Positions 3,906 to 44,764 of a DNA stretch of 64,000 nt are shown piece by piece. The DNA comes from Styela clava. Its lineage: Eukaryota; Chordata; Ascidiacea; Stolidobranchia; Styelidae. The notes beneath the pieces were generated by a model. The model had not been told where the DNA came from. It searched no databases and saw only the letters and a list, made by a program, of their open reading frames with translations. The DNA is taken from NCBI RefSeq assembly GCF_964204865.1, contig NC_135255.1, positions 19,187,135 to 19,251,134 on the forward strand, given 5' to 3'. Position numbers and translations under genes: made by a program. Each line of letters starts with the position of its first letter. Position 1 is the first letter of the stretch.

Positions 3906-6900
3906 TTACTGTTCATCTGCCAGCTGTAGATCGGGCACCAAGGGATTTTCTTCATCTACTGGCAAAGGCTTGTCTTTTAACGCAGTACTCTGACGCTTTT
4001 TTTTGCAATAACAATACACTGCTAGGGCTGCTATTATCATACCAATAATCACACTGGCAACAATCCATGCAATGGTTGCGCCAGGCAATTTTGTAGCTGT
4101 AACCAGTGGCGGAACAATTTCATCTTTTGTAGCTTGTTCTGTAGTGATTTTTTGTGGAATGGAAACTGCTGTTGTTGTAGGATCTGAAATAAATTGTAAT
4201 GTTAAATATATTGATAGGTTTGAAAGAAATTGTATTGTTAAATGTTGTAGGTTTTTTTAGTTACAGTTGGTCTTAGCATTTTAGTGGTCGCTCGTAGTTT
4301 GCAACTATGGCACAAACATGCTGAAATCTGTCACTCTAACCTCTAGGCCAGGGGTGGGCAAATTATCGCCCGCGGGCCAGGTTTTATTTGACGACTACAC
4401 TAAATTAGAAATCATGTCTATAGTTCTTATGAATATAAATTCCCTTCAAAAATATCAATGAAAATAGCGCCATAATGGCCCCGATTGTTACATTGTGTGT
4501 CTTATTATTATAATAAATGTTAATCTGACTGTTAAACTAATTCTTGTAAATAAACAGTTTTTTATTCATAGTTTTTCATATTGAATTTTGAGCTTCCAGC
4601 AAAGTAACCAGATGTATTACTTGAAACCGGGAAAAGAAATTGCCCACCAATGCTCTAGAGCAGCCATGTGTAACCTACGGCTCGCGAGCCAAATCTGGTC
4701 CATTGAGTAGTTCAATCTAGCCCATCTGATGCTGCTACAACCACTAAAACCAAATTTTGATGTCAAGCTAAAAATTGCTCAAGGATTTTGTTGAGCCTGG
4801 GATTAAATTTAGTTCTAGCTCAAGGCTTATTATTGTTTTCCATCTTTGCTTTTGTAACAGTGTAATGATTGTTCACGAAATGCAACTTTTTTCATCACAC
4901 TTACATGGCCCACCAGTCTAGGTAGGCAAAATTTTTGGCCCCTGTTTCAAAAATCTTGCCCATCCTTGCTCTAGGCCAGAAGTTCCCAAACCAGGGGTCG
5001 CGCCCCCAAATTGGGTCGGAGTGATAAGTAGGTAGGGTCGCAAACAGTTTATGGGGTCGCTGAGGTATGGTAGAGGATGGATGTACAAAACATCTAAGCT
5101 TTAACAAACCATGATAAATTTAGCAGTTTGTACTATGGCTTACTGTAAAACAGGCCTATAGGCATCGCCCTAAGCTTATGCTAAAAAAAATGTAGGTGCG
5201 TATTGTGACATCACTGTATGGTTTTAGCTTATTTTACTTAATACCACCACATGACCAAACTCAAAAGTCCAGTGAAAGAATCTCTGAGGTTTCATGAAAA
5301 ATATATACATTGACCTGGGGTCGCACTGGGTTGTGGAAGACTAACGAAACAGAATTTTAAACATAGCCCATAACCCCCCCCCCCAGCTAGTGATTATTTG
5401 TTAATCGAAACAGCGCTATTCTGTTGTTCATGACGATTTCAATATTTTTTTAATAAAGTGCAAATATGAGGAAATGACAAAAAACCTCCTGAATTATAAA
5501 TACGAGAATATCGGTCGGAAACCGAAGACTTATCGATCGAAGGTTAGGGAATCCCCCAAAACAGCGCTCTTACTCCATAGTGACACCGTGTGTCCAATCA
5601 CTAATTAATTAATAACTCGCTCATTATACGACATAATTCATCGAAAATCAATAGGCTTCTGATCCGAGCTATGATGCTATGAGCTTTCGTGAGATATCGC
5701 GTGCATCTATCAGACAGACAGACAAACAAATACCTATCAACATACGTACCGATTAAAATCGATAAGTAATAAGTTATATTCTATATGGTAATCTTCCCAC
5801 ATCCAAAGTTAATAGAGCCATTTATTCAAAATAAAGAATATGTGGTTAAAATTGAACACCCAAAAAGTACTGAAATTTGGCACCCAAAATTTCAACTTGG
5901 CAATTAGAAATTTCAGAAACCCCCCTTTGAAAATATCTGTCTACGCTCTGGTATAAACTGCAAACTTATATGTTAGCAAACCTAATACTGGCGAAGGCGC
6001 AAAACAAAATGATTTTTTAAGTGTAGCAAGTTTACCAAACTAGCAAACCTACTGTAATCGAATTTGGATGGAAACTTTTCAAATTCCTGCTCTGTACCTG
6101 CCGTAATTCTGTGTGAAAACCACTGCACTCATTTGTATTTAATCAGGGGTGGGCACATTACAGCCAGCGGTCAGTACCCAGCCCACCGAAGTGTTTCATC
6201 CGACCACTTGTGGCTACTGGAATTACGACTATAGTTTTTATGAATATTAATTTCTGTTGAAAATCATGTTGACTGTTACATTGCGATTCTTATTATTACT
6301 TATTAGCCTTTATTTGCAACTGGCTCAGGAAAGTAATTGTCCACCTCTGTATTAAATATGATATCTTTATTGATTGACTTACCATCTGGTAGATCCGAAG
6401 CTGTTGTCCCAGCTGCAGTCGTTGTTTCTATAATAGCAGTAGTAAAAGGTTCGGAAGTTGTGTTTTCTAACTCGGTCGTCGGTTGCTCTTTAATGCTGTG
6501 ATAAAAAATTGAATAAACAAAATATACCTTGGCTGTGTACTATTGATTAGAATTATATTCCTAACCCAGCGGGTCCCGAGTTGCAAAGAGAGCCGTGAAA
6601 ATTAACAGAATTGTGTTAAACAAAACTAAAATATGATTAAATCTTTGGCATGTATTTATTATTTTACTATAAATGTTTAATCATTTTTTATATTAAATGA
6701 CGTGTATGCTGTTAATGTCAACAAACTTTAAAATGCATAAAGTACATATTAACGATTGCAAAATTGAGTTTTATTTAAAAGTGCGCCGTGAGTTTTTTCC
6801 CTGATAATTGGGTGGCACATGGACAAAAAGTGTGGGAATTGCTGGCATATTTATTAAATTTCTAATAACCGGATAGGAAATTTTGTCGTTCTTGCGGAGG

Positions 6901-7885
6901 AAATTTGCTGTGTATATACTTTAGTATTACGTTACTAATATTCTTTATTTCTTTATTATCACTATGATACCTTCTTATGCATACATTATAAACTACTTCA
7001 ACTGTACAAAAGCAAGCTTGCAAGTTGCACATAACAATAGCTAAGGATCGATTACAGTACCATTTGTGAGCAGTGAAGACAGAACTGTTGACATTTTATT
7101 GGAGGTGAATTATTCTACCAATTTGAAGCATTTATGCAATCGATTTGCACAGGGTTATCATTAAGTACTGCTACAATTACAGAATCTTGTTATGAAGCGA
7201 GTTCTCCATATATCTTAAACAGGTTTGTTTTATTTTAATCAGTGTATGATTTTTTTTTTATTATCTCAAAACACACCATTATGCCCACGATTAGTTGCAC
7301 AGAACACATCAAAGTTTTTTTTTAAATTTACAGAAGTGAGCTTCATGATCATGACACCGCCACATTTTTAAAAGTAATAAAACAAATGACAGTACAAAGA
7401 CAATGAATTAATCTTGATTGACAGACACTTTGGCAGCGGGGAATACATTACAAAAGAGGTAAACCCATATATGAAACTTAAACAAAGCATGTATGAGAAG
7501 ACTCTGCCAAAAGTAAGCCGACCCAGAAAAACCAAAATAAGCATAGCTGCACAATTTAGCCCCCCCCCCCCCCCCCTCAAAAAAAATATTAAACCAACAA
7601 TTGAATCCAGAAAAGCGACTTATTAGTCAAGAAATACGGTAATACTCACCCAGAGCAACTAATACTGTGTTGTGGAAATGGGTTTTTCTGTCCATCTGGA
7701 CATTTCTTGCAACAAAACTCATCTTTAAGGAAGTCCAGTTCAATAGTTTTACAATCGGTTGTTTTAAAATAGTTGACATCACAGATGTAATTCTCAGAGA
7801 CTGGACCATACTCTGCAGGTTTTGGGAGCACCAGTCCCATGCACTGAGGTGTTAGAATTAAAAGTATCATCAAGAGTAGCTCCAT
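3906..7885 (-). CDS. Receptor gene A: single-CRD TNFR-like type I membrane protein (3 exons)
   Basis: Exons on minus are 7885-7650, 6495-6383 and 4183-3906; together 627 nt, 208 residues plus stop, with GT-AG borders and phases 2 and 1 that match genes B and C. Start chosen at the ATG opening a hydrophobic leader (residues 1-19). Residues 24-79 form a six-Cys module (C35, C45, C58, C59, C62, C77) with the CCxxCxxG signature typical of TNFR cysteine-rich domains, then a Thr-rich stalk with an N-x-T site, a membrane span about 153-176, a KKKR stop-transfer and a 32-residue acidic tail with no death domain. The 2.2 kb second intron holds nested hAT-like elements and a hairpin-ended repeat. Known of the family: TNFRs bind TNF ligands. 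Inferred: this is a surface or decoy receptor. It is the only array member on this strand. Other small Cys-rich ectodomain families remain possible. Confidence 0.75.
4349..4655. mobile_element. hAT-like non-autonomous element in gene A intron 2
   Basis: CAGGGGTGGGCAA to TTGCCCACCAATG with flanks CTCTAGGC and CTCTAGAG (6 of 8 match). A second hAT-like piece follows directly (about 4664-4965, ending CTTGCCCATCCTTG, then CTCTAGGC), and a third starts near 4997 (CAGGGGTCGCG). Confidence 0.55.
5502..5769 (+). repeat. Hairpin-ended dispersed repeat, copy 1
   Basis: Begins ACGAGAATATCGGTCGGAAA and ends with an ATCGAT/AAAATCGATAAGTAA hairpin; interior TCACTAATTAATTAATAACT and ATCAATAGGCTTCTG. Lies in gene A intron 2. 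Confidence 0.6.
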
Positions 7886-8065
7886 CACGATTATTGTTTG
7901 CGGATTTATCCACAATCTCCTAAAGATATTTGTAGATTTGCTACACTAAGAGTAATATTTAAATGTTAAGTTTTTCTTTTCCAAATTTTTCCTGATTTCT
8001 AAAAACGAGAATCCAAGGTCTAAGCTTAGACCAGCAACAGTATTGATGGGATATATCGTATATAT

Positions 8066-8787
8066 CAGGGGTGGGCACAATTTTTTCTTATAGGAGCCGC
8101 ATGCTGCAAGTCAGAACTTTAAAAGAGCTGCAGAATTTGTGAATTTAATATTATTATCATAATACCATGAACAGAAAAGAAATTCACACAAGAGTCTAAT
8201 AACAATAAATAGATAAACGAGGCAGCTATGCTCAAATATATGCACAATTTGAGTTCATTCAATTTGTGTTTCCTTATAGCTGATTTACAAGGGTAGTCTC
8301 GTAAGAAGTTTTCATGATTCGTTTCATGGTGCCGTTTTACATTGCTGACTTTATTCTGACTTAGTAGCTTATGGAAGATTATGCACAAAGATTTATTCTC
8401 CTGACTAGTAAATGCGTATTCTTCTTCCCATTCTGACTTGACAACTCTGTTTTCATCTTCGTACTTTCGTTTCTTAATTGAGGATATATCGCACAGTAAC
8501 TTAGACTAACTAACCGCAATTGAGCTGCAATACCGCCGACGCATCAATAAACATTGACCGTTGTGACGAAAGATTTTCTGACTTGACTGACTAAAATTCA
8601 ACGCTACAGCAATTTTCATACTAAAACATGATTTGTCTTAATCATTGAGGAAAACTTCTTTACGACTTTTAATAAATTAAAAGAGTTTACATTAAAGTTT
8701 TTCTCTTAGTTAAAATTTAGATGATAATTTATGTTATCGAGAAGAGCCGCACAAAAAGTCTGGCGAGCCGCGGTGTGCCCACCCCTG
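8066..8787. mobile_element. hAT-like non-autonomous element
   Basis: Inverted ends CAGGGGTGGGCAC and GTGCCCACCCCTG (one base differs), 722 bases, perfect 8-bp duplication GTATATAT. It lies upstream of gene A. No transposase frame remains. Confidence 0.8.
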
Positions 8788-11700
8788 GTATATATATACA
8801 TAAAAATATCTGTGTGACAAAAATATCAGTAATAAGCATTTCACACAAGACAATACTTTTGTATAAAAAATTTTATAAGTTTTTTTTTTTGAATGAGGCC
8901 ATGTATACACATCTACTTCTATGTAAAAATTTACAATAATTTGGAAGTATCGAAATCTTTCTGGTACGGCAATCAGGGGCGTAGCCGGAAGTTTCCAAAG
9001 GTGGGGAGGGCTGAAATACTTAATTACTAAGTTAGACCGAAACAGCGTGGCTCCGAGTGTAGGTTTTCAAAATACAGAGGGTCTGAAAAGCTTTTCAAGC
9101 TATGGAAGAGTGCTATTTCTGATTAAAAAAATAACGCTTTTTGACACCTCACAAGGGGAATTCTGACCCTTAACCTCCCCTTGCCAGCAATGCCTACTTA
9201 ATTTATGATTAAAATGTTAGACATGGGAATTGAACCCGATATGTTTGGTTGAGTCTACCGCTTGAACGCTTCCAAAATATAGCCTGCCTTATCTATGATC
9301 GATCTGACTCTTGAGCACAGACTTTTGTGACATTATAGATGAACTACCAATTTTGTGATGAATCCAACTTCTTTAGTATACACTAACCAGGAATGACAAA
9401 AATTCAATAGTTCACTATTCGAAAGACATTTAATATAAGTGGTTCTCAAACGGTGGTAGACAATTTTTTTAGAGGTTGTGAAGCTAATTTAAAATTAAAA
9501 CAATTATTAGATTTGATCTTGCCTGTTCAATATTAGATATTCACATTTTTTCATTTACGTTCAATCCGCACATTTCAATGTGTTTTTTAATAAAATATAA
9601 TTTCAACATACTATATGTTATTTGTAGCTTACTGTTAGCTAATGATTTTTAAGGTGTGGCACAAGACTTCACAAATTCTAAAAATGGGGTGCGGCCTAGA
9701 AGTATGAGAACCTCTGTTTTATATTACTATTTTCATCCATGGAATATAAAATATTTTAAATTTGGGTTATACCAACAATGAACATTAAAAATCTAAGTAT
9801 ATTCAACTAAGTTTGCTTCAAAAATGGAGCACAGTAAAGATAAACAGTGATTTGATGGATTTTTTATACTTTCCGGCAAATTATTAAAGGCTTCCACGCC
9901 ATGCTGTAAATTTACAATAGCTTGAAATCATAATAAAAACATACCATTCAATTTATTCACAAAGACTATACCACACCAGCTGTTAAGTTTTTTTCACAAA
10001 AGCTACGCTCACCTCAGACACTCCCTTTTAAAATAAATCATATTCAGAACAGCCCTTCCAAATTATTTACAAGCACTATTCCTCAGCAACTGGTAAGTTT
10101 TCTCACATAAGCTCTGCTTCAATTAAACACGCCCTTATTTAAAAAATCATAATCAAAACATGCCTTCCATATTATTACCAACTAATCCCTGCTTTTATAT
10201 ATAGTATTGAAACAATTTTAATCATGGTAACGCTGTAATAAACTGAATAGAATAACCAACTAGAAGCTTGCTTTCTCTGGACAAAAACATCCAAACTAAA
10301 ATTAATCTCGTGATGACAGTCTCGAGACTAGTCAATCGTGAGATCATGTGAGAAAATTCGCGAAGTCATTGTTCACTCATAATGTCTCTCGTGTAACAAA
10401 TACTCGTTTCCATTATAAGCGATAAATACTAGACATTATGTGTTAAATCGGTAGATTTAAAGAATGAATCAGCGACCAAAGGAATGTTAATATCAAGTGA
10501 ATAGAAATGATGGGGGTATTTGTAACCATGAATAGGGGTTAAATAAAAAGGTCACTTTGGACCAAAGTAGGTCATGAAATATCACAAATCCTATTTATAT
10601 TGAAGTTGGGGTGAAATGTTAAACTAAACTGTGTCAAACTCGAATAAAACAAAATAATAAACATTGAGTTGAATAAGCATACAATCTACTTCTATGTAAA
10701 GAGCTACTATTGTTTAAAAGGATCAGAATCTTCTGGCTCTTTTTACATCCAGGAATTTTCAAAAGGTGGGTTCCTTAGTTTCTAATTGCTAAGTTAGACC
10801 GAAACAGCCAGCGGGGCAAAATGCGGGTTTTCAAAATTCTAGAGGGTCTAAAAGCAATTCAAGCTATCGAAATTTCAAATTTCGGTTTAGGGAAAAAGCT
10901 TTAATTTACACATCACGAGGGGAGCTCTGACCCTCAATCCCCCTGGCCACACCCTTGCCTGACACGCCTACATAATTCATGGTCGAGGTTTTAGACGTGA
11001 AAATTGAACCCGAAATGATCAGGTGAACCGAACGCTTTTAACCACTTGGTGATCACGATTTCAAAATATAGCCTACACTACAAATGATGGTACTTCCGTA
11101 GTGTGTGTACCAGATTAGGGCTAGGCCATAATTTTATTCTGATTTTCCTTATTTTGGTTCTACTACGAGTTTGAGGACTGTCTGTGTTAGCCAAGTGAAT
11201 ATCCCCCTGCCCATAGGTTTCAATGCCTTAACACAACTTGATGTAAAGTAGGCGAACAAATTTTGTTACCTCCATATTGGTACACACACTTCTGGAGCGC
11301 CCAAATGGCTTTTATGAGACAACGCTTTACACAAACTACCAATTTTGCGACTAATCCAATTTTCTGAGCTTACCCTTACCCAGGAATGTCATAAATTAAA
11401 CAATTCACAATTTATAAAGTCATTCTATATTAATATTTTCACCTATGTAATATCAACATATTTTCATTTGGAGTCATGCAAACAGAGAACAATAAAAATT
11501 GAAGTATATTCAATAAGATTGTTTTGAAAATACGCAGTTACGATAATCAGTGATTGGAATGATTTAATTTTTCACACTTCCCAGAAATTTATTAAAGCTT
11601 TCACGCCTCACTGTAAAGTTTCAATAGCTTGAAATCATAATCATAACAGTCATTTGATTTATTTACAAAATAATTCCTCGGCAAGTTTTTTTCACAAAAG

Positions 11701-13130
11701 CTCTGCTTCTCCAAACCCACCCTTATTAAAACTGGGCACTATTTCATAGGTTCTCGAAGCCATCAGAGCTTCGTTAGATAAACCTAGCGGCTTCGCGAGC
11801 TATTCGTTTACTTATTAAAATACTGACTCGATTAATTTTGTTACTACCCAAATAAGCAATAACGACATTAATAACATTTGACAACGGTAAATACATTCGA
11901 ACAATCAAAAAAAGTAAATTTAATTTACTTAGGACAACAATGTAACAATGTTTTTTTTGTTTTGATTTTATAAGTTTATTGTGGGGCTCTATAAATAATT
12001 GTCAAAATTGGCAACCTACAGAGACATGTCTAGACTAAATTATATTATAATCTAACAAGAATAAAATTCACAATTGCTCGTTTAATGAGCCTTTAATTTA
12101 ATTATTATTGTGCAACAAAATGTAGAAAAGTTGATGCTAAGAGCAAATGTATCACTGCTTGACTGCTTGAGCGACGAAAGGTTGCCGACGCCTAATCTAA
12201 ATCTTCAGGGGCACCATGACATTAAAATTTGAAAATCATTGCACTGTGATACACAACATTTGCTTGATAAAACCATTCAACACTGCTTAAATTTTTGCTT
12301 TAAAACCAACTGCTTTTATATTATAGGCCTAACTTTATTTATTGTGAAACTATAGTAAACTGAATGGTAACTGAACTAAAAGCCAGCTCGTGCTGAACAA
12401 AACACACAGAAATTAATATGGTCCGTTAACAGTGGCATGGCCAAGACTAGTCAGCTGTGACACAACATGATACCATACATTTCAAATCTGATCAGATGAC
12501 AATTGCGAGACAAACTAGTCAGCCGTCACACTACGTAATTCCATACATGTATTTGAACAATGAATCATATTTCTTGTGAAATTCTCAGATTAGTTACCTA
12601 TTAAACACATACCATTCCAGAATAAACGTTTTGTGTCAAAACTGATGGAATGTTTTTAAGCAAATAGACAAGAAAAGGTTTATATTAAATACTAATAAAG
12701 GTCAAATAGTGAAAGTACTAAAGAAAAATACTTTCACAATTTTGCTCAGCCTAAACCAGAAAAGTTGATCGAAAAGTTAAAACCAACTGGCACTCTACAT
12801 ATATATATATATATATGAAAAAATGTCAGTAATTAGCAATCAACACAAGAGAATACTTTTTAGGCAAAAATTATATGGATGTCTGTACAAGCATCACTTT
12901 TATGTAAAAAGCTACAGTAGTTCAAAAAGACTGAAATCTTTCAGGATTTGAACCCAAAATTAATAACTTTCGGCATAAAGGCAATTGAGATTTTGAAATA
13001 TACTTCATCTATGATTGATTTGATACAGCGGTTAAGGATTCTTGCAAGATAACATCATAAATGAGTCACTTTTTGATGAATTTGACTAAATAACTTTTTG
13101 ATGAATCTGGTTTTAAGATGAACAGTATTG
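8788..13130 (+). repeat. Degenerate ~2 kb tandem units, no gene
   Basis: Units begin near 8800, 10660 and 12800, each with TACTTCTATGTAAA-like starts. The first two share AAGTTAGACCGAAACAGC, AACTACCAATTTTG and AATAGCTTGAAATCATAAT; the third is partial. The ends resemble the receptor upstream cassette (GACTAGTCA..GTGA, and AATAGGGGTTAAATAAAAAG at about 10532). No receptor exon is recognised, so they may be remnants of gene-less duplication units. Confidence 0.6.
11089..11301. mobile_element. MITE with related left end and distinct right end
   Basis: GGTACTTCCGTAGTGTGTGT to ACTTCTGGAGCGCC; imperfect 8-bp duplication CAAATGAT/CAAATGGC. It shares the TAGGCCATAATTTTATT core but has a CAACTTGATGTAAAGTAGGC interior. 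Confidence 0.6.
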
Positions 13131-14330: not shown

Positions 14331-14477
14331 AACTGAACATTACAAAATCTGAAAGTCCAGGTCCAAGACATAAAACTGTGATTAGGATCTGATTTACATT
14401 TTTCAGTATTTTCCGTGTCCCGGAGAAAAGAAAAATTTTATTACGACACCACTGTGGCACTAACTAACTATGTAAAT

Positions 14478-19193: not shown

Positions 19194-19258
19194 ATGCATA
19201 AACAACAGGTTTGGATTGTACTTGTAATTACAATGAATTTGGTAGTATGTTATAAGTT
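19194..19258 (+). CDS. Candidate signal-peptide exon of receptor gene B
   Basis: An ATG opens a hydrophobic leader, MHKQQVWIVLVITMNLVVCY, which is conserved in the second duplicate at 25494 with only conservative changes. The downstream first obvious exon of gene B has no leader, whereas genes A, D and E do, so a short upstream leader exon is needed for a secreted product. Several weak GT donors follow within 30 bases (near 19249, 19256 and 19264) and the matching acceptor before 19523 is ambiguous, so the 3' border is approximate. Function is inferred from hydrophobicity and conservation only. Confidence 0.4.
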
Positions 19259-19522
19259 AGCAAAAAAGGTATCCGAACTGAAAATGAATTTTTGTTGTTT
19301 TTTAGGAGGGTAAACCAATTTAAAACTCCTAAATGATCAGTAGTCACTTGCAAATTTCTTTTAATATTCTTATGCCTTCTAGAGAGAACTCTAAGTTTTG
19401 AGAAACTCGTTATAATCATACCTTAATATTTGATTCTAGTTTCAGTATTACTCTCTTAACTATAATATTCTACTATTCAACAAACTTGAAGAGTTGAAAG
19501 GATTACAGTACAAGCAAAAAGC

Positions 19523-21479
19523 ATGACTAAACAACCTCAGGCTGAATATGGACCAGTTTCAGAAGATGACATTTGTAATGTCAATTACTTCAAAACAACT
19601 GGGACAAATTGTAACACTGTCAAATTTGACTTTCCCAAAGAGGAGTACTGCTGCAAGCCATGCCGTGATGGGCAAGAGAACCCAAATCCAGAATACAGTA
19701 ATAGTTGCACAGAGTGAGTCTTATTTAGTTTAATAGAATATAAATCATAAAGCCCTGAATTGAATTAAGCAAAAAACTTGGATGTGTTTTTTACAACTAA
19801 TGATGGACATAAAAGTGAGTATAAGAAGCTTGAATAAACACTGATTAAAATAAAACAAACCTGGTTATGATATATTCATAACTGATTTTATGGTACTCCC
19901 GTAGTGTGTGTACCAGGCTAGGATTTGGCCATAATTTTATTCCGATTTTCACTATTTTAAGTCTATTACAAGTTCGGGGACTGTCTGTGTTAGCCAAGTG
20001 AATATACCCTGCCCATAGGCTTCACTTCTTTTACACAACTTTATGTAAAGTAGGCGAACAAAATCAGTTACTTACGTATTGGTATATAAACTTCTGGAGC
20101 GCTTCACCAAATTGTAACAGGAATTTATGAATGCCCTGTATATCTTGATTACATGATTGTTTAAATAGGCAGAATATTCAACCTCTAACTAAAATATCAC
20201 CAATGCTGTCTGTCATTCTTTATTGCTCACAAATCAGGCTATTTATAACTCATCAACAAATAGACAAATAGCATCTATTATGAGTAAAGGTAGAAAAGTA
20301 AGTTAGATTTGGTGTGGAGCTTTATTAAAAAAATACGCTCTCCATTGCACTTCTAATAAAAAAGTGAATCCTACCCGAAAGTTAGTGGTGGGACAATAGC
20401 AGAATGCTACTTCTATCATTAGTACACTGTCGTATATCTTTTTATTCAATTCTAATTATTTACTACAGCATTGCAGTGCAAACATCTACAGGTCAAAGTG
20501 AGTTATACACAATGACCCCAAAGACCTTTACAACAACTAGTGAAATACAATTACCAGCTACGGATGGGACAACTACTACAGATCTCTCAGATGGTAGGCC
20601 ATCAAATACCATTAACTTGTGTTCTCCTTTAAATTATTTCCTGCCAATTGGCAAACTGGGATGAATGTGCTTAATCTTATTTCCCACTCTTTAAATTTAA
20701 CCAATAACATCACTGCATAATGGTATGGCTTTGTAAAAAAAACTATATTTGACAGCCATTCATGCAAACAAATGCGATGTCCTATATACAAGCTTACTGT
20801 GGAATATATATTCAGGAAAGACCAGACCCCAGTAGTTTTGAAGTTTTGCATACAAATCTTTAATAAAAATATTTAAGGAGCATTGTTACAGCAGCCATAT
20901 TTATGAATTTGAACTATGTTTCACAGCCATTCATGCAATCAAATCCTGCATTGGCCTTGTAGTTATAGTGACGGATTTTACTGTTTGCATCACAGGGGCA
21001 AAGTTACGGGCAACCACAAAAATGGCTGCTGTAACAAAAAACCTACGATAATTATTGAAATATTCAATATCATATTTTTTTCAGATCAAACAACTTCAGC
21101 AGTACCATTTCTAGAAGAAATCACAAAACAAGTTAACACTACAGGAGGTGAAATTGATATACCACTAGTTACAGCCCCAAAGCTGGATTGCACCACCATT
21201 GCAGTGATTACTGGCAGTGTGATTGTGATTATCAGTGTGATACTAGCCATAGCAGTGTATTTTAGTAAATACCGCAAAAACAAACAAAAAAAAAAAGATA
21301 AAAAAAAGGTTTTACCACCAACATCAGCAGCTAATGGAACAAATGGCGACCAATCACCACCCTCAAATCAAGACCCAGCTCTAACAGATGATGTCCTAAT
21401 GCATGATTTACACAATGAAGACGTAGAAAGCGCAGGTGAAACAACTCGCCTTACTTCTCCTTCAGCTACGACAGCGTAA
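19523..21479 (+). CDS. Receptor gene B: single-CRD TNFR-like membrane protein
   Basis: Exons 19523-19713, 20469-20593 and 21085-21479 join to 711 nt (236 residues plus stop) with the same phases as genes A and C. The first listed exon holds six Cys (residues 18, 30, 43, 44, 47, 62) with CCxxCxxG; the shared segment AEYGPVSE precedes them as in A and C. The second exon is a Thr/Ser-rich stalk. The third gives an N-x-T site at residue 123, a membrane span about 143-165 and a 71-residue tail starting with a Lys-rich run. The listed ATG lacks a leader and probably follows an upstream signal exon. An AATAAA lies at 21827. Compared with C the tail is shorter: homology to the last C codons continues past the stop but in another frame. 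No cytoplasmic domain is recognisable. The gene lies in the first half of a large direct duplication. Confidence 0.75.
19892..20103. mobile_element. MITE of the 11089 type, in the gene B intron
   Basis: Same left end, core and right end (CTTCTGGAGCGC) as the 11089 copy; absent from the gene C intron. Confidence 0.6.
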
Positions 21480-22277: not shown

Positions 22278-22433
22278 ATTTCATCCAGTTCAAAAAAATA
22301 ATTCAAATAAATAAAAATAAAACTCAAAATAATTTTTTCAGTGGGAACATACAAATAAGTCTGAGGAGTACACTATAGATCAATAATAAAATAATGTTGC
22401 TTTGCCTTTTTTACACAATTTACATAATTTTTG

Positions 22434-22670
22434 GTGCTCCCGTAGTATGTGAATCATGATGGCGAACACCGGAACGTCGTATGTGTACCAGGTTAGGGTT
22501 AGGCCATAATTTTATTCCAATTTTCCTTATTTTAGTTCTACTACGATTTCGGGGACTAGCCAAGTGACTCTCGTAGTATTTGTACCTGAAATTATGGCCT
22601 AACCCAAACCTGGTACACATACTACATTCCGGTGTCTGCCATCTTGGTTCACATACTATATGAGTACCTA
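22434..22670. mobile_element. Foldback MITE, GGTACTCCCGTAG family
   Basis: Starts GGTGCTCCCGTAGTATGTGA and ends ATATGAGTACC. The paralogous site near 33.95 kb lacks it. Confidence 0.6.
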
Positions 22671-25493: not shown

Positions 25494-25558
25494 ATGCACA
25501 AACAACAGGTTTGGGTTGTACTTGTAATTACAATGGATTTGGTAGTATGTTATAAGTT
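25494..25558 (+). CDS. Candidate signal-peptide exon of receptor gene C
   Basis: This is the counterpart of the 19194 leader in the duplicated block: ATG followed by a hydrophobic core (VWVVLVITMDLVV). The reading frame upstream is open here but broken in the gene B copy, so only the part from this ATG is shared, which fits a true start. The donor is not settled; GT candidates lie near 25549, 25556 and 25570. Confidence 0.4.
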
Positions 25559-25819
25559 AGCAAAAAACGTATCCAAACCGAAAATGAATTTTTGTTGTTT
25601 TTTAGGAGGGTAAACCAATTTAAAGCCCCTAAATGATCAGTAGTCACTTGCAAATTTATTTTAATATTCTTATGTCTTCTAGCTGAGAACTCATTGAGCA
25701 AACTTTTCATAATCATACCTTAATATTTGATTCTAATTTCAGTATTACTCTCTTAACTATAATATTCTACTATTCAACACACTTGAAGAGTTGAAAGGAT
25801 TAAAGTACAAGCAAAAAGC

Positions 25820-28404
25820 ATGACTGAGCAGCATCAGGCAGAATATGGACCAGTTTCTGAAGATGACATTTGTAATGTCAATTACTTCAAAACAACTGGG
25901 ACAAATTGTAACACTGTCAAATTTGACTTTCCCAAAGAGGAGTACTGCTGCAAGCCATGCCGTGATGGGCAAGAGAACCCGTATCCAGAACACAGAAATA
26001 GTTGCTCAAAGTGAGTTTTATTTAGTTGATCAAAAATATTAGATCTTGATTAGATCGGCGGCATGGCGCATTGTGTTAAGGGTTAGAAATACACTCTTCA
26101 CCGCACCACCAATTACGCTGCTTGGGTACGCAGGTTCGAATCCTGTGGGGGAAAATTATGTGCAAGAGGATTGGTGGAGTTTTCTTCGTCATAGGGTAGT
26201 TCACACAACTGCTGGCCATTTTTGGCTTCCTCCAGATAACTGGCAAACTAATTCCGAACCATGGTATGACGTATGATTAAGCGGTTTTTGCGCCTTCGCC
26301 TCCCCCAGGATAAATATGTAAATCCTATCCTATTACAAGTAAAGTTTGACTGCGTTAGGTTAGGTGTGGGCAAAGTTTTTTTCAAGGGCCTCACTGACTA
26401 CATATGCCATCAAAGTTACTATACTCATTAGCTATGATATTGTCAAATTTAATGGTGGCTGATATTGTTGAATCAGAGATGAAAAAACAATAATATTATT
26501 TTTACTATTTACAGTTTAGATATTTCAATGAAAGTTTAGAAATAAAACAAAATTATACATGTAGTTGTAATGAATTTTTACAACTTTTACAAAAGCAAGG
26601 TCGGCTACACAAAATGCTTTAGCCACATGTGGCCCACTGACTAATTCAGGGTTAGGTTATTGGCCCACCTGGTATCTTATTCTAAAGAGAAGCGGTAGTC
26701 AAGAAAACAGATTAGGCTTGGCGGTGTAACGCATCATATTAAGCGTTAGAAATATGCTCACCACTGCACCTCCGATAAATAAGTAAATCTTACCCGAAAG
26801 TTAGTGGTGGGATAATAGCAGAACGCTACCTCTGTCATTAGTACACTGTCAAAGTATATCTTTTTTATTCAATTCTCAATTTATTACAGCATTGCTACAA
26901 CTACAAGTCAAACTGAGGTATATACAACGACCCAACAGACCTTTACCACGGCTAGTGATATACAAATACCAGTTACAGATGGGACACCTGCTACCAATCA
27001 ATCAGATGGTAAGTCAGTAAATACTGTGAACTCATGTTATCATTTACATTCCAAGTTATTGTGCTATAATCTTATTTCCCACTCTTTAACTAACCAATGA
27101 CATCACAGCATAATGTTATAGCCTTATATGTGAAACCACTTAAGCATGTCTTTATGGGAGTAAATACTGGCAAGCTGGTCTACAACAGTCATTCATTCGC
27201 TGTTTTTAGACGTTTGTTTTGTAGTAAATACGCAAATAAGTCATGGTCAACAAATACAATACAGCAATACTCAAAGAGTTACCATACACCATAAAAGTTT
27301 CATAAGGTTTCTAAAAAAGGAAACAAAAAAAAAACAAAATTTGAAGTGAAATATCAGCACCCTAAGATAAAATTTGAAAAAAATAAGGAGTAGTTTTTTA
27401 GGGACTGCTTCCATTTCTAGGTAACAAAACAACTTAAAATTGATCGGTTATTCAATTATTTAGTTGCAAATAAAGCGATTTTTGATAACAACAATCACCC
27501 TAAAAACACTTTAGTAAAGCGATCTATACGTACATTTTGTACACAAAATCTCAGTTGTGATAGCCATTTATACAAACAGGATATGGGCATGATGACCAAA
27601 AGCCAAAAATAAAAATTTTGCCCACCTAGACTGGCGGTTCATGTAAGTGTGACGTAAACAGGTACATTTTATGAACAATAGTTACAGTACTACAGAGGCA
27701 AAAGTGGCGTCAGTAGTCAGTCCTCTTGCTGAAAATAAATTTAATCACAATCTTAACAAATTACTTGCGCTAACCTTCAGTTAAAATATCAAAATTTAGT
27801 TTTGTCAGATTGACTCTGCGGGCTGTAGTTTGCCCATGTCAGGATTAGAGTGATGGATTTCAACATGTTTGCGTCACATGAGCAAAGTCACGAGCGACCA
27901 CTAAAACCACTGGCAAGTACTACTGTAACTAAAAAACATTCTATATGTATTAAATACCTAACAATATAATTTCTTTCAGATCCTACATCTACAGTGGTTC
28001 CATTTCAAGAAGATATCACCACAGAACAAGCTATGACAACGGGAAACAAGGTTGATCCACAACAGGTTATAAAGATGGATGACACAACCTGCTACATAAT
28101 TTTTGCGATTCTCGGTATAATTATCATTGTGTTAATAGCCATAGTAGTGTATTTTTACCGCAAATACAAAAACTCAAAGGATGAAAAAAACGGGGTTTTA
28201 TCAGCATCTAATGGAACAAATGGCGATCAACTACAAGCCACAGATCCACCAGTTGATGACCAAATGGAAAATGCATCACACTCTGGAGCCAGAGAAAGTG
28301 CAAATGAAAGAACTCCCTTTATTACCCCAGCTCCGACTTCTGATGAAGCAAATGACAGTGTGACTCCAGCACCAAATTCGCAACAAGCAGTTACAGGAGT
28401 TTGA
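25820..28404 (+). CDS. Receptor gene C: single-CRD TNFR-like membrane protein
   Basis: Exons 25820-26010, 26890-27008 and 27980-28404 join to 735 nt (244 residues plus stop). Structure mirrors gene B: six-Cys module with CCxxCxxG, Thr-rich stalk, membrane span about 142-163, basic stop-transfer, then the longest tail of the array (about 81 residues), rich in Ser, Thr, Pro, Asp and Glu and without a known domain. The first exon is nearly identical to that of B, while stalk and tail have diverged more. Intron 1 holds a full tRNA-derived SINE just after the donor; intron 2 holds further repeat material. The 3' flank is split by a nested hAT insertion about 550 bases after the stop. Likely a surface receptor; ligand and signalling are unknown. 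Confidence 0.75.
26055..26340 (+). repeat. tRNA-derived SINE (full length)
   Basis: tRNA-like head with perfect B box GGTTCGAATCC (26133-26143) and an A-box-like segment near 26062, a tRNA-unrelated body (GTGGTTCATGTAACTGCTGG type) and tail TAAATATGTAAATCC. It lies just inside intron 1 of gene C. Confidence 0.65.
26713..26800 (+). repeat. Internally deleted SINE shared by genes B and C
   Basis: Head fused to TAAATCTTACCCGAAAGTTAG; the counterpart is at about 20308-20388 in the gene B intron, so it predates the duplication. Confidence 0.5.
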
Positions 28405-35860: not shown

Positions 35861-36339
35861 TAGATAAAAAAAAGACAGTGAAAAAGGATGTAAGGTGACT
35901 GAATGTTTATTTCATGGGCGAAGCTAAGGGCGGTTGAGGGTTGGGACCCCCTTCAAAATGTAAAAAAAAAATTGTTTTTCTGTATCAAACATAGCAATTA
36001 TTCTAGCTTAAAACGTTTTTTAGACTTTGAAGACTCTTGAAAACCAACGCTTCCGGCCTCTGACCGGACCAGCTTGTAATTCGCCAATTAGGAATTCGAA
36101 AACTACCCCTTAAAAATTCCTGCCCCTAGTTTATTCACACCTTGTGCTCAGAATAAGTATGTATGTGAACAAAAATGGTTATCGAGCAGCGACACCCAAA
36201 GTACCACTGTTATTATTGGATGAACAATAAATAAGGTGAACACTAAACACAATAAATAAGGTGAACACTAAAAACAAATACGTTAAGCAATTGTTTACAA
36301 TTGCAAGCTTTTTATAATTTGAAATTTAGAGGGCTGTTT

Positions 36340-36520
36340 CCACAAGGTTAGGGTTAGGTCATAATTTGAGGTACAAATACCACGGGAGTCATTTGGCTAG
36401 TCCCGAACTCGTAATAGAACTAAAATAAGGCAAATTGGAATAAAATCATGGCCTAACCCTAACCTGGTACACATACTACGTTCTGGTATCCGCCATCTTG
36501 GTTCACATTCTTTAGGAGCA
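36340..36520. mobile_element. Foldback MITE, GGTACTCCCGTAG family (partial)
   Basis: Carries the ACAAATACCACGGGAGTCA and CCTAACCCTAACCTGGTACA arms; the left end is missing. Confidence 0.5.
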
Positions 36521-36693
36521 CCTTGAATAAGGCCCTAAATAAGTAGTTACTGATATCTAATATTAATTATTATGTGGAATGACCGAATCTTTCCTGTTCG
36601 TCCTTACTTACATAATTCATTACAATCTGGTTCAGGTAGAGACGTGGCATTTGAACCCAAAATAGGTAAAGATGCCAGCACAGTTAAGTTTAA

Positions 36694-36923
36694 GGTACTC
36701 CTGTAGTATTTGAACAAAGATGGCAGACACTGGAACGTAGTATGTGTACTAGGTTGGGGTTAGGCCATAATTTCAGGTACAAATACTACGGGAGTCACTT
36801 GTCTAGTCGCCGAACTTGTAATTGTACTAAAATAAGGAAAATTGGAATAAAATTATGGCCTAACCTGGTACACATACTACGTTCCGGTGTCTGCCATCTT
36901 GGTTCACATACTACAGGAGCGCC
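36694..36923. mobile_element. Foldback MITE, GGTACTCCCGTAG family
   Basis: GGTACTCCTGTAG to CTACAGGAGCGCC, with perfect 8-bp duplication AAGTTTAA on both sides. Confidence 0.8.
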
Positions 36924-37299
36924 AAGTTTAATGCTTCAACTCCTTGGCCATCGCGCCAAAATACCACCAAACTATCACAAAGTCTATTTACATTAAAGTA
37001 GTGTTTAATAAATTGAGTAGTCGAAGTCGAGCTTGTTGTTCCATAAATCTAACTCTAATCATTACTTATAAGCTTGCAACCCGCAAACCCGAAGTTTTTC
37101 ATATAAAAATGTCAAAATTTTTACTTCAAAGCAGGGCTGGAGCGTTGGTTCGAAATCACAGAGCTTCTGTCTCCAGCTCAGAGCTTCATTTTTTTTCTGT
37201 CAGGGCTGGGCTCCAGCGCCATGTTTAAATGTGACCACTATCATGAAATATCCGACCATGCAGTTTCGTGGAAGCGGGACACAAAAGTATGATGTAAGG

Positions 37300-37636
37300 C
37301 AGGGGTCGGCAACCTACGGCCCGCGAGAGTAATATAAAGTAACGAAACAGCTGTTTTGACGATTATATTCCTAATGTAACAAAATTTATTGTGAGACACG
37401 TGTAAACTAAATTATATTAAAATCTAACCTATAATCTATATTAAAGTATAAAATTCACAATTACTTGTTTAATGAGACTCATAAAAGAATTACAATTAGA
37501 CAAATTGCAACAAAACGCAGAAAAGTTGATGCTAAGTGCAAAGGGTTTAATTGCGCCGATACTTTCTAAAAAATGTGCGACCCGCCAATGACTTAAATCC
37601 CTTAATTTCGGATCGTGAGCGAGTTGCCGGCCTCTG
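37300..37636. mobile_element. hAT-like short element upstream of gene D
   Basis: CAGGGGTCGGCAAC to GTTGCCGGCCTCTG, 337 bases, perfect 8-bp duplication ATGTAAGG. Confidence 0.85.
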
Positions 37637-37998
37637 ATGTAAGGATTTCAAATTTTGAAATTGAAGTTATAAATATATGAATTCCACTTGAGATTTTATA
37701 TTAATATGATGAAGGATAGATTTTATCATTTGTATGAAGTATTAGGAAATTATGAATGTTAAAAAATTATTAGATGGTTCGGAGCTGGAGCAACTAAAAT
37801 GTCTGTTAGCTCTGGCTCCATTTAATATGGTAAGCTTGGCTCCAGCTCCACCAAAATGTCACAGCTCCATGACTCCAAGCTCTGACTCCAGCTCGCCAGC
37901 CCTGCTTCAAAGACTATCGGCCAAACGCCATAAAAAGATTACTGACTGAATCCTAACTTCATGAAATTATTATCAGAATATCATAATATGAACTAGGC

Positions 37999-39289
37999 AT
38001 GAAACTACCAGCAATTTTGCTTGTGACAATAATCATACTTCTATCACAAATTTCATCTACCAAGGAGATTCGAAGGCATGTATATGGACCTTTGAAAGAT
38101 GGTGAACATTGCCAGAAAGACTACTTTGAATATGCTAAAGGCTGGTTAGAAGAAAGGTACTGCAAGAAATGCAGGCATGGATACCAAAATGATAATCCAG
38201 AACGTAGCAATACATGCACGGAGTAAGTTGAAAAGTTATCTGATTATTACGGTGGTAACTTTCTAGACTTTTAGTAATTTAATTAGGATTCATATTCATC
38301 CCGGGGAAGAATTTGATGAGAAATCTTAACCATACGGTGAACAGTGGCCTCTTGTCGGTTACCAGTTCATGTCAGGTATAACATTAGTTAGCCAGTTATT
38401 TGTTTCAGATGCATCGAATTGATTGGATTACTGGACCCCTTCACCTGTTTAAGGTATTTTCATAACTAAATCCATGACCATGCCGGGGATTGTCGAACTG
38501 GGCCCTAGTCCCCGCTAGGGATGTGGGTTGTTTTTCTATACAACGGTTATTCACTCATTTCACTCTGGACAAGGCCACCCACGATATCAGCTACTGATAT
38601 CTCACAATATGTAAGAAGTACTTTTATTTGGAAGGGCTGGCATTTTTTCAGTTTACCTTTACCTACACAATTTATAACACCCTGGGTGAGGTGTGGAATC
38701 TGGGGGTCATGTAAGAAGTCTGATTATACAATTCACTAGTAATATTATGAAATAATAGCTTGTACATACCAACAAGAAAAAGTCCATTAATGCTCTTCTT
38801 GAATATGAACATCTTTAGCAGGATTTGAAATCACATTCTCTCGAACATGATGATTATGCTTCTATCCACTTTGACTCTCTTCAACACTGAATATAAAATA
38901 TTATTTTCAGAATCAAAACGAGGCCGACATCAAAAGGAAAGAACATCACTGAAGAACAAAAACCTATTAAAGAGCAAAACCGTAATGTTTCCACTTTGAC
39001 GTCAACACCAACAACAAAAGTGTACACGCAAATGAAGAAAGTTCCACCATCCCCAATAACACAAACAATGACACCCAGAGGAGTTAGTCATGATGTTGAA
39101 AACCACGAATTTGGAGAAAAAAACGACACCAAGAGCAATGAAAGAGCTTCTACAAAGGAAATTGACATCGTATGCAAAGCCCAAGCTTCTGATTATACTC
39201 CCTACATTTGCGCTATTGTGATTGTGTCAAGCATAGCTGTGGCAGAGTTTGTCATTATATTTTACATGTACTGGAGGAGTAAGAAGTAA
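37999..39289 (+). CDS. Receptor gene D: tail-less four-Cys TNFR-like membrane protein (2 exons)
   Basis: Exons 37999-38222 and 38911-39289 join to 603 nt (200 residues plus stop), phase 2, the same phase as the first junction of genes A-C. Residues 1-20 are a clear signal peptide. The module has four Cys (38, 55, 58, 73); two of the six in A-C are missing, and the first Cys of the CC pair is Tyr. YGP and the CxxCxxG core are kept. Stalk and membrane exon are fused in one exon here; the stalk has N-x-S/T sites. The span is about 173-195 with Glu187 in its middle, followed by a tail of about five residues. The intron holds a reversed SINE fragment. Without a tail it cannot signal alone by any known TNFR route; decoy function or pairing with a partner is inferred. 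Confidence 0.75.
38310..38520 (-). repeat. SINE fragment in the gene D intron, reversed
   Basis: Carries GGCCTCTTGTCGGTTACCAG and GTTATTTGTTTCAGATGCAT, the reverse of the SINE body. Confidence 0.5.
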
Positions 39290-40558
39290 AAGGACAAGAA
39301 TCAACAATAATGGTGGTTCTCAAACTTTTTGAATTTTTCATTGTTATACATTCATCAGTGTGAAAGCCAATACAATATTTATTGAACACCGCACTTTAAA
39401 ATCAAAGCCATATAACTGTGTAGTTTATATTCTTATTAATATTACATTAATAAAAAAGCAAATCACAAATATAATGGACAATCTTCGCTATAGAACAAAT
39501 CTTACTAATAGAACAACACCGTGACATTTCAAATTTGACGAAAAAATGACCACCTAACCAGAGTGCAATAAATTTGATACGAAATGTTGAACAGTTTAGA
39601 TTCCATGCCTTCTAATAAATAATGATGACTGCTCGTATCAGTGGCCTACAGTGGAGCAAATAAAGCATCGGCTCCTTAATGGGGCCACAGAGCAGTTGGA
39701 GGGGGCCACAATGCTTTCACTTCACAAGAATCCTTCCTGTTCCTCCTAGTTTCATTGATTGATAAGATTATTTCACAGGGTGTTTTCACTTTGTTAAGCA
39801 TGAATTGTTTGAACATAATGGGATTTGGAATCTACTAATCAAACTAACACCATAAATACCGCTGGAATGCTAAAAACCTCCGGAAGAGGGCCTCAAGACA
39901 GAAAAGGTTGAAAACCACTATCTAAAGATTTGATGAGATTGAAAGGTGGTTCATATAACTGCTGGCTCATTAGGCTTCCATCACTATCCAAGTCCATGAG
40001 TCTGGTACAAACTATCTATCTGTTCATTTGTTTCCAAAAATATATTGCACGGAGTTTTCATACAATTTTTACATCCATTTTATACAGTAGCAAAACTTTA
40101 TCCATTACTTTTCTAATAATGGAATAAGATGAAGTGTCATATTAAAATGTCTGATACTTTAAGTTTCTAAGCAAGTGTCGCTAATTCCGTTGCTGCCTAT
40201 TATACACTCTCATTTATGCTACTATTTTCTACTTTATTACTTCACTAAAATGATAATATACGAGTGTATTCATCAAAGTAAAAACCTAAAGTACAACAAA
40301 CCTGGTATTGCGAATTGATTAACAAATTTGTAACAAGATTTTATGAACGCCCAGCTGTTTTATACATTCTAATATTAATAATTATATGATAACAATTTTT
40401 TCTACTATCTCCTCGCTTTTGTATATTCCGAGATGACTGTTAAAAAAGTTGGTCTGTAAAATAATACTTTTAAAAATTCGATGTAATCTCAGAAAACTAT
40501 TGGGGCATGTTTTATTGAGAACTCATTTACACAATAAAAGTTCTATTATGCTTTAGAT

Positions 40559-41310
40559 CAGTGGTTCCCAACCGTCGGTCCGTGGACCCGTGCCGGTCCG
40601 CGAGGCTTTTTTGCCGGTCCGCAGAAAATTTCATTTTGTTGTTTTTCTACCGTCTCAATCGCTTTACCGAAGCCGAAAAGACGAAGTTACGTTGGTTTAT
40701 TACGTAATTTCTCTTCTGCCGTCATATTGCTGTTGGATACGTGCGGGATGGCCCGGCGACGTCTTGGCGCCGTGTAATCATACTTTTCGGTTCATCGCGA
40801 AAGCGTTCCGTCAAATCTCACAAGATTCAGAAGCCTGGAAATCAGCACGCGTGCTTTTACCATTCTGCATGCTTTTCTTGATTAATAGGTCAAAGTTATG
40901 TTGGTTTATTACGCAATTTCTCCTCCGCTGTCATATTGGTGTCTGATAAGTGCGGTATTAATGGCCCGGCGACGTCTTGGCGCTGAGTAATCACTTTTTG
41001 CTTTTTCGGTTCCGATTCATCGTGAAAGCGCTCCGTCAAATCTCGCAAGATTCAGAAACCTGGAAATCTGCATGCGTGCTTTTTCCGCTCTGCATGCTTT
41101 TCTTAATTAATCCGAATCCATCCAAATAAAAGGTTATGAATATTTCTTTGTTTAAACCAGAATGTATCAAGATAGACAGTATAATATTCCAGAGCATCAC
41201 CATGAGCATCTAATAAAGACTGGATACCGAAGAATTTTTTGTAGTCATCCGGCACGCCGAGTACTTCATTTTCCCACATCTGGCCCGCCGACTAGAGAAG
41301 TTGCCCACCC
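40559..41310. mobile_element. hAT-like debris with an internal direct duplication
   Basis: Left end CAGTGGTTCCCAACC and right end GTTGCCCACCCCTG belong to different subfamilies and the flanks do not match, so it is composite. Two copies of a ~225-base segment (from about 40683 and 40895) share TTGGTTTATTACG and GGCCCGGCGACGTCTTGGCG. Confidence 0.5.
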
Positions 41311-41445
41311 CTGATCTAAGACAATGTTTCTCAAACTGTGGCCCATGATGGTCTACTATAAAATTACCTGGTTTAGTTTTCCATAGGTTTTCGTCAGTTA
41401 TTTTATGTGTCACAATCATTAACCCATTTACCGCTGTCCTAGAGC

Positions 41446-42529
41446 AGGGGTGTCAAACTCGTGGATTTCCGAGGGCAGCATTGCATTTTGGGAATTGTGC
41501 AAAGGGCCGCAAACAGTTTTTGATATATTTTGATAATGTATACTTGAAGCATATTTTCAGATAGGTGTAGTTCGTGACATACCGAATGAAGTGATATCAT
41601 TTTCCTAAATTTCAAATGCCATTTACATATAAATTTTCGCATTTTACTTTTATTTTAATTTACAGTATTTATTACAAAAAATCATAAATTTTTTTGTACA
41701 ACTATCCATAACATTTTTGAACAAAGTTTCGATGAGCATAAGGAAACAATAATATATATACGGAAAAATGACTTAATCTACGGTAAATATATAGACCTAA
41801 ATTTTACAAGAATACCACAGATAAACTCAATGTTTGTTTTATATTATATGTAATGACGTTTGGCATCTCTTTTGTGCCACCAGCTTACTAATATCAGGCT
41901 GAAATGATTTTACAGCACCAACTCTAATTAATGAGGTCACATGATCATCCTTTAATCTGGATCGTTGAGAATGTTTTATTTAATTTAAGTAATGCAAAAA
42001 TATTACGGTTATCATTTTATGTATATATCCGTAAATCAAACAAATGACTGAGTTACAGACCAGACCAGTCATTTCTTACCTTTACGTGGCATAGAACCGT
42101 TTGAGTTATGATTAATATTGATTTTTAGTAACTAGGTAGTTGTATAATTATAATAATAGGCTACAAACACATACAAATTTTCAGTTCGAATTTTTTTTAA
42201 ATTTGTCATATCGACTTCTGAGCCTATTCAGATAATGTCTACTTATATTGATTTTTTCATTGTACTGATGGAAATATGACAAATTAAACAATGTGCAGTA
42301 GAATTTTGAGAAATGCAGAAATATTGCAATTCCCATTTTTCTTAAAAAATGCCATCTTCTCCATGTCAGTATACCGTTCGTCATGTAAAGATTACACAAT
42401 ACCCACATGACAAAAATAACCCTCTCGGTAATAAATCAGTGTTCCCTGCCCATTAAAACCTAAACTAGGAAAGCATGGAAAGAATGGGGCATATTATATG
42501 TAGGCCTATAAAGAATAACAAAAATAATG
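41446..42529. other. hAT-like left end then unannotated AT-rich DNA
   Basis: CAGGGGTGTCAAACTCGTGG at 41446 is a typical hAT terminus; no right end found. Confidence 0.4.
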
Positions 42530-43120
42530 AAGAGTTTACTGTAATATTTTATGCTGTATATTTGGCTCACAACTTTTTAAAGTTTCCAAATATTTTATTA
42601 GCTTTGATAAAAAGGAAACATTAATACTGACTGAGCGCCGGTATATCACACGTGCGTGACCATTCCCATACCAAAAAGAAACATTCGAGAAATTTCAGAG
42701 CGTCAGAGAACCACGCTTTACTAAATCTAACATAGTAGACTGGTTAGTTATTTATTAACCGGATAACAAAAGGTTATTTGAATAGAGAATGGATCAGCTG
42801 ACTGAAGGAATGCTTTCAAGTAAATAGATGTGGCTGGTTTTTTGTTTGAGGTCGATAGGGGTGAAATAAACATGAGAATTCACCCCAGGGTATGAATAAG
42901 ATTGAAAAGTAATGATTTTCATTGAGATGGGTTGCTTTCCAAAGATTATAATGCAGTATACTAAATACATGTTAGTAGTCGTTATTTTTTAACTAAATAC
43001 AAAAGCTATACCTCACAAATAAACAATGTATCAGCTGACTGGAAAGGAGTGCTATTTGGTTCCTGGCAAAAGTAAATAGGGGTGAAGTAATGAAGATGAT
43101 CTGATTCATCCTTGGCAGTG
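42530..43120 (+). promoter_or_regulatory. Receptor upstream cassette (gene E)
   Basis: TAGACTGGTTAGTTATTTAT, AACCGGATAACAAAAGG, GAATGGATCAGCTGACTGAA and ATAGGGGTGAAATAAA in the same order as for C and D; it ends about 340 bases before the ATG. Confidence 0.4.
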
Positions 43121-43454
43121 AATATGATAAAACAAAGAAACTGAAGAAGGATGTAATTGAATGTTTAATCCAGGGGCGTGGCATGTGGACCCCCCTTTTA
43201 AAAAATGGTAAAAATATTTGTTCTGTATAATGCATAATAGCAATTTTTCATAACTAGAATCGTCTTTCAGACACTAAAGACTTTTGACAACCCCCGTTTT
43301 CTGTCTACTTCCCACATATTATTCTGGTATGTTATATACCTAACGTTTTACCTTGAATGAACTCAAATGACCCCACTAAAATAATAAAAACTGATTATTC
43401 ATTATTGAATTATTCAGTTATTTTCAGAATACTGTACTACAATATAAACTAGAC

Positions 43455-44764
43455 ATGAAGCTGCCTGTATTATTTCTTGTGTCAGTGGTCTTACTTCTGT
43501 CACCCAATTCATCTGCTAAACAGATTAGAAGGCATATCTATGGACCTTTAAAAGATGGAGAATATTGTCAGAAAGACTACTTCGAAATTGCTAAGGGTTG
43601 GTTGGAGGAAAGGTACTGCAAAAAATGCAGAAGAGGATATGAAAATAATGATACAGAACATTCTAATACATGTACCAAGTGAGTCAAACATTTGAAAATT
43701 GGAACGTAGTATGTGTACCAGGCTAGGGTTAGGCGATAATTTTCTTCCAATTTTCCTTACTTTAGTTCTACAAACTAGCCAAATGACTCCAGTAATATTT
43801 ATACCTGGAATTATGGCCTAAACCCAACCTGGTACACATACTACGTTCCGGTGTCCGCCATCATGGTTTGCTTACTACAGGAGTACCGATTGTTGGACCC
43901 ACCCCCTCTTGTGAGGTTGTTATAATTACCAGAGTTATTGTACAAATACTACGGCAGTACTACTACTTGGCTAGTCCCCGAACTTGTAATAGAAATAAAA
44001 TAAGAAAAATTGGAATAAAATTATGACCTAACCCTAACCAGGTACACATACTACGTTCCAGTGTCCGCCATCTTGGTTCACATACTTCGGGAGTATCTTT
44101 GAAAGAACCAATTCTTTTCACATATCTGTTGCCTACCCAATTTAATATACCCTTGGTGAAATGTGGGATCGATAGGCCATGTGCGCAGTCTGATTAAACC
44201 ATTCATTAGCAATATTATGAAATAATAGGGTGTACATGCCTACAGGGAAAAGTCCATTAATGCTCTTCTTGTATAAGAAAATCTCCAGCGGGATTAGAAC
44301 CAACATCTCTTGAACATGATGGTCATGCTTTTATCCACTTTGACGTTCTTGAACACTGAATATAAATTATTATTTTTAGGATCAAAACGAAACCGTCCAT
44401 ACGATCACCACCAAACAGAAAAAAAATCACTGAAGAACACAAACCTAATAAAGAGGAAAATCGTAATGTTTCTAATTTAACGGCAACACCAACTATGTAT
44501 GAGCCGACGAAGAGCATTCTATCCCCATCAAATAAACAAACAACGACCCCTATTGGAGTTAATCATGGCATCAAAACCCCCAAATTTAGAGAAAAAAACA
44601 AAATCAAGAATAATGAAACGTCTTCTACAAAGGAAATTGACACAGTGTGCAAACCCCAAGCCTCTAATGTTACTGCCTACATTTGTATTATAGCGATACT
44701 GTCGGTCGTAGATGTGGCAGCGTTTGCCATAATAGCTTGGATGTGCTGGAGATCCAATAAATAA
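43455..44764 (+). CDS. Receptor gene E: tail-less four-Cys TNFR-like membrane protein (2 exons)
   Basis: Exons 43455-43678 and 44380-44764 join to 609 nt (202 residues plus stop), phase 2. It is a close paralogue of gene D: signal peptide 1-20, the same four-Cys module with YCKKC, a Lys/Asn/Thr-rich stalk with several N-x-S/T sites, and a membrane span about 175-197 carrying Asp186 at the position of the Glu in D. The tail is only WRSNK. The intron contains two copies of the GGTACTCCCGTAG foldback family, which do not disturb the splice sites. The upstream cassette at 42.5-43.1 kb matches those of the other receptors. Role inferred as for D. Confidence 0.75.
43703..44097. mobile_element. Two foldback MITE copies in the gene E intron
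   Basis: 43703-43890 and about 43940-44097, both GGTACTCCCGTAG family with truncated left ends and intact right ends (CAGGAGTACC, CGGGAGTATC). Confidence 0.55.

Follow-up and report, generated by a model that had tools for sequence, protein, structure and literature searches.

The stretch of the Styela clava genome analysed here (the window; 64,000 nucleotides, contig C6, positions 19,187,135-19,251,134) carries five related genes, copies A-E, which are probably members of a tandem family, specific to this tunicate's lineage, of small type I membrane glycoproteins. As sequence features the five gene models hold up, although the structures proposed in an earlier sequence-only reading of the same DNA required several corrections. 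That reading had also taken the encoded proteins for one-module relatives of the tumour necrosis factor receptors (TNFRs); the sequences do not support presenting this family of one-module surface proteins as a demonstrated TNFR family.

Positions refer to the window unless given in Mb; positions 3906 and 44764 are the exact ends of the array, being the stop codons of copies A and E. The exons are as follows.

7650..7885, minus strand: copy A exon 1, leader and six-cysteine module, phase-2 donor GTGAGT (spliced model, purifying selection)
6383..6495, minus strand: copy A exon 2, Ser/Thr-rich stalk, phase 2 in and phase 1 out (spliced model, 113 bases)
3906..4183, minus strand: copy A exon 3, stalk, membrane span, tail of about 36 residues and stop (spliced model)
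19194..19268, plus strand: copy B, candidate leader exon with a weak acceptor downstream (in frame; start of the A-B similarity)
19541..19713, plus strand: copy B, module exon, six cysteines, phase-2 donor (spliced model, module search)
20469..20593, plus strand: copy B, stalk exon (spliced model, 125 bases)
21085..21479, plus strand: copy B, span and tail exon (spliced model)
25494..25568, plus strand: copy C, candidate leader exon (in-frame model)
25838..26010, plus strand: copy C, module exon, six cysteines (spliced model, module search)
26890..27008, plus strand: copy C, stalk exon (spliced model, 119 bases)
27980..28404, plus strand: copy C, span and tail exon (spliced model)
37999..38222, plus strand: copy D exon 1, leader and four-cysteine module, phase-2 donor (spliced model, module search)
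38911..39289, plus strand: copy D exon 2, stalk, span and eight-residue tail (spliced model)
43455..43678, plus strand: copy E exon 1, leader and four-cysteine module (spliced model, module search)
44380..44764, plus strand: copy E exon 2, stalk, span and eight-residue tail (spliced model)

In all five copies an open cysteine-module exon is closed by a phase-2 GT donor and the membrane span lies in a later exon, so that the claim of five models joined in frame with the same splice phase after the module was borne out (5/5 joined, 5/5 phase-2 donors). Direct exon joins hold for D and E, in which the module exon is followed in phase 2 by the span exon with no middle stalk exon. They fail for A, B and C, in which exon 1 (phase 2) is out of frame with the span exon (phase 1) and a middle Ser/Thr-rich stalk exon, entered in phase 2 and left in phase 1, is therefore required. 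Likewise, the common order of leader, module, stalk, span and tail is correct in that every model combines a single module with a stalk, a single span and a tail of 8-83 residues, but a hydrophobic leader lies inside the module exon of A, D and E only. The module exons of B and C have no leader and are preceded, about 50 bases upstream, by an in-frame stop; their candidate leader exons are in frame, the acceptor has no pyrimidine tract, and the A-B and A-C similarity starts exactly at this acceptor.

A search of the whole genome (376.6 Mb) with one D and one B module found at least ten module loci, the five of the window included, and placed every one of them on C6, from 18.87 to 20.04 Mb; as only the best candidates are scored in this search, the locus counts are lower bounds. 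The loci outside the window are copies F (20.035 Mb) and G (20.019 Mb), which bring the number of complete models to seven, a partial copy at 18.872 Mb (L019), and two copies at 19.910 and 19.932 Mb (L022 and L023) with an insertion or frame lesion. The latter two are closely similar (L022:3981-4160 and L023:5061-5260), and their stalk exon, which has no donor of the usual kind, continues to a stop codon; they would be either broken copies or soluble forms. A lone span exon, H, lies at 20.025 Mb; no module or stalk exon was found either within 6 kb upstream of it or in the locus L048. A span-exon match at C4:14.2 Mb is weak (E 0.67), and a weak module match on C8 (E 0.4) was put down to chance on inspection.

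The occurrence of related neighbouring copies with common exon phases identifies a tandem multigene family, in agreement with the sequence-only reading. The parts of the window that surround A, E and the first of two caspase genes match a block of C6 at 20.01-20.04 Mb, which carries F, G and a caspase, in inverted order, with 75-92% identity that includes the introns (counting alignments of at least 250 bases and 75%), which indicates that the receptor-like genes and the caspase were duplicated together. Copies B and C share a tract of about 1.3 kb (93.5% identity over a 1301-column alignment) that ends just past the module exon, whereas identity between their span exons is about 70%, a pattern that is likely to result from mosaic evolution via conversion or unequal exchange.

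The seven complete models fall into two subfamilies, with six module cysteines in A, B, C and F and four in D, E and G; the cysteine pattern is therefore not uniform. D and E, and likewise G, lack both the extra cysteine and one cysteine of the CC pair, a joint loss which suggests that these two residues may pair with each other. Across the models A-G, the stalks comprise 76-102 residues with a Ser plus Thr content of 24-33%, and the spans reach hydropathy maxima of 2.75-3.44. The tails are 36-83 residues long in A, B, C and F and eight in D, E and G; none of the seven contains a TRAF-binding or Y-x-x-L/I/V motif, and no death domain was found by Pfam in A-E, although neither a death domain nor a TRAF motif is required of decoy receptors. 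The weak Pfam matches over stalk and span, all below the curated cut-offs, were read as matches to composition: Mucin (E 1.2e-5) and RIFIN (E 7e-5) for C, Adeno_E3_CR2 (E 0.003) for A, Cadherin_C_2 (E 0.005) for B and Podoplanin (E 0.003) for F.

The module is conserved, and the stalk evolves faster. The ratio of nonsynonymous to synonymous substitution rates (dN/dS) of the module exon is 0.14-0.42 in seven pairs (A/F 0.42, B/C 0.39, A/B 0.15, A/C 0.14, D/E 0.18, E/G 0.25, D/G 0.19), compared with 0.54-0.87 for the remainder (stalk, span and tail). In these figures the module exon of B and C includes the candidate leader exon, E/G reflects two changes only, D/G is nearly the same comparison as D/E, and some dS values are saturated (A/B and A/C above 2). 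Gap lengths are divisible by three in 42 of 46 exon gaps and in 13 of 45 intron gaps, the former drawn from seven non-independent pairs (E/G having no gaps) and the latter from three pairs, of which two show an alignment identity of only 52-57%. Codon-position bias (p<0.05) was detected in three of six module-exon pairs and in none of the six stalk/span/tail pairs, indicating that the latter regions are only weakly constrained, though their length differences mostly preserve the frame.

In a comparison of A with F in 100-base steps, identity is 68 and 79% in the two steps inside exon 1, 63-71% in the 200 bases before it and 34-53% in the downstream intron. Exon 3 is 69-88% identical, above its downstream flank (39-53%) and below the homogenized intron that precedes it (mostly 90-99%). 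Fast evolution of exon 3, considered because introns are here more alike than exons, was rejected: the homogenized tract ends near this exon, and for this reason no positive selection is claimed.

In a tandem family of small surface glycoproteins, the module would form a disulfide-stapled binding head held off the cell surface by the glycosylated stalk. Since D, E and G have only about eight residues inside the cell and the others lack a death domain or TRAF motif, the A-G proteins might serve as ligand-binding co-receptors, decoys or shed forms and not signal by themselves. Three points weigh against the reading as a family of surface glycoproteins: the lesions of L022 and L023 and the orphan exon H, by which some members are probably dead; the leader exons of B and C, which are weakly supported given their poor acceptor; and the stalk, span and tail exons, which lie on the weak side in showing no codon-position bias in six pairs.

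The alternative with most in its favour is that the family is a divergent branch of the TNFR superfamily with one degenerate cysteine-rich domain (CRD), like BCMA or Grindelwald, whose head binds a TNF ligand as receptor or decoy; we regard this as unlikely. By eye, the module motif C-x3-YF ... CC-x2-C-x-x-G-Q ... C has the look of a first TNFR CRD (CRD1), the C-x3-YF and CC-x2-C-x-x-G-Q spacings being like those of CD40 and TNFR2. A profile of CRD1 built from eleven human receptors scored the eight modules at -1.0 to 7.7 bits, whereas the receptors used to train it score 42-62. Fully shuffled sequences reached the real score in few of 1000 trials for most modules (A 0, B 6, C 14, F 16, E 23, L019 36, D 44, L023 306), and hhalign aligned 13 columns around CC-x2-C with a probability of 38% (E 3.3e-4 for a single comparison). 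Together these two results point to a cysteine spacing that is itself CRD-like, a weak signal.

The remaining tests speak against this alternative. Shuffles that preserve the cysteines equalled or exceeded the real CRD1 score in 54-772 of 1000 trials for the eight modules, and a second profile that includes single-CRD receptors, likewise from human sequences, gave at most 2.2 bits for seven modules, against 9.2-44.2 for left-out true members. None of the five full proteins A-E matched a TNFR family in Pfam (maximum E 10, the HMMER filters dropping most weak matches), and neither did F, the A module or the partial L019 module, while CD40 CRD1, cut at the matching point, still matched TNFR_c6 (E 4.3e-4, below the curated bit cut-off). 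Searches of PDB sequences with a nine-module profile and two single modules returned three, one and no matches up to E 10, none of them a TNFR and the best a zinc-finger protein (E 0.022). As a claim of sequence homology, TNFR membership is not supported by Pfam, the PDB sequence search or the two CRD profiles with their shuffles, and it is rejected at that level only.

The arrangement of the cysteines is also different. A CRD is defined by six cysteines paired C1-C2, C3-C5 and C4-C6 in a survey in which CRD proteins were counted across animals (PMC4979521). No module has a cysteine at the C6 position; the six of A-C are arranged otherwise, D and E have four, and the cysteines that follow the missing position are found close to the membrane or within the tail. 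Of the TNFR-like character proposed by the sequence-only reading, only the spacing signal survives. Its view that one-CRD receptors are unusual was too strong, as the receptors of BAFF, APRIL and TWEAK and the insect proteins Wengen and Grindelwald have a single CRD according to PMC6684607, a fact that itself favours a TNFR affinity. Like BCMA, BAFF-R, the TWEAK receptor, Wengen and Grindelwald (single CRD, PMC6684607), the window proteins are of type I with a small cysteine-rich head and a short or modest tail. They differ in that the A-E modules match no profile, lack the C6 cysteine and have four or six cysteines otherwise arranged, and in that no TRAF or death motif was found.

The genome itself keeps this alternative alive, since it contains TNF ligand exons (four matches; four TNF ligands are cited for Ciona in PMC7674686), and it also has at least one canonical TNFR-like gene. 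Three loci match TNFR_c6. L001 (C4:6.36 Mb) is the canonical one, with a match over the cut-off and a phase-1 intron at C-E-P-G of CRD1; L002 and L003 also contain an EGF-like stretch and may not be TNFRs. The window family shares with L001 a cysteine-rich ectodomain with a hydrophobic span nearby, but has neither its TNFR_c6 match nor its phase-1 intron. Should its members nevertheless bind TNF ligands, they would represent an extreme case of CRD reduction.

The genome shows signs of tunicate affinity: one glycosyl hydrolase 6 (GH6) exon exceeds the curated cut-off, GH6 being part of tunicate cellulose synthase, and only five Hox-type matches reach E 1e-12 or better, three of them scattered across 2.8 Mb of C3; a search for COX1 gave no match. 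The A-G family is probably tunicate-specific. Clustered genes for membrane proteins are found in other tunicates as well, for example at the Botryllus histocompatibility locus. Among the papers listed in searches of the openly available literature, none was recognizable as dealing with this family, nor is it described in the accessible parts of PMC4979521, PMC6684607 and PMC7674686. If expressed, its members would be small surface proteins with a head that has no Pfam assignment, encoded beside an expanded caspase cluster in an apparent close relative of vertebrates, and would show one-module receptors being made and remade in tandem arrays.

The window contains two caspase genes, both with the active-site motif QYCRG.

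52370..53557, minus strand: caspase gene, one open frame, sub-threshold N-terminal Death match (E 0.01), co-duplicated with copy E (Pfam, genome comparison)
60444..61679, plus strand: second copy of the caspase gene, in a single open frame, without a Death match (Pfam)

Of the 54 matches to the caspase profile listed genome-wide, 17 are on C6, all within 18.78-20.09 Mb and most in long single open frames; two of the 17 are adjacent and may be one gene. The module loci on C6 are interleaved with these caspase genes, a linkage that may reflect no more than shared duplication. A more ambitious interpretation, in which a chordate receptor family not described before, its head a disulfide module of its own kind, was amplified with caspases to form a linked gene complex for recognition and death, appears quite improbable. 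Even less probable is a polymorphic cell-surface recognition family (self/non-self or immune) with the neighbouring caspases as death effectors: tandem mosaic copies, homogenized tracts (B/C and A/F) and co-duplication with a caspase would fit such a system, but the dN/dS values describe a module that is conserved rather than hypervariable, and linkage alone is weak evidence. That the array is decaying and consists mostly of pseudogenes without protein products is the least credible explanation, for although L022 and L023 are broken, H lacks its module and stalk exons and the tails show no codon bias, the exons of seven complete models are open, their phases agree and their gaps mostly preserve the frame, and the module dN/dS is well below 1.

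Several further elements were observed in the window. Two copies of a sequence at 39261-40043 and 47489-48319, with stretches that are 95-98% identical and a start inside the last exon of copy D, are likely to be a recent transposon or segmental copy. Copies, about 120-225 bases long, of what is probably a short mobile element are interspersed in both orientations at 22433-22657, 36402-36524, 43966-44093, 45565-45789 and 51867-52091. An open frame on the minus strand at 8122-8505 has a sub-threshold Spin-doc zinc-finger match (E 4.6e-5) and is probably derived from a transposon, and a tandem repeat with a 48-base unit lies at 62666-62793 (2.7 copies, 93% matches).

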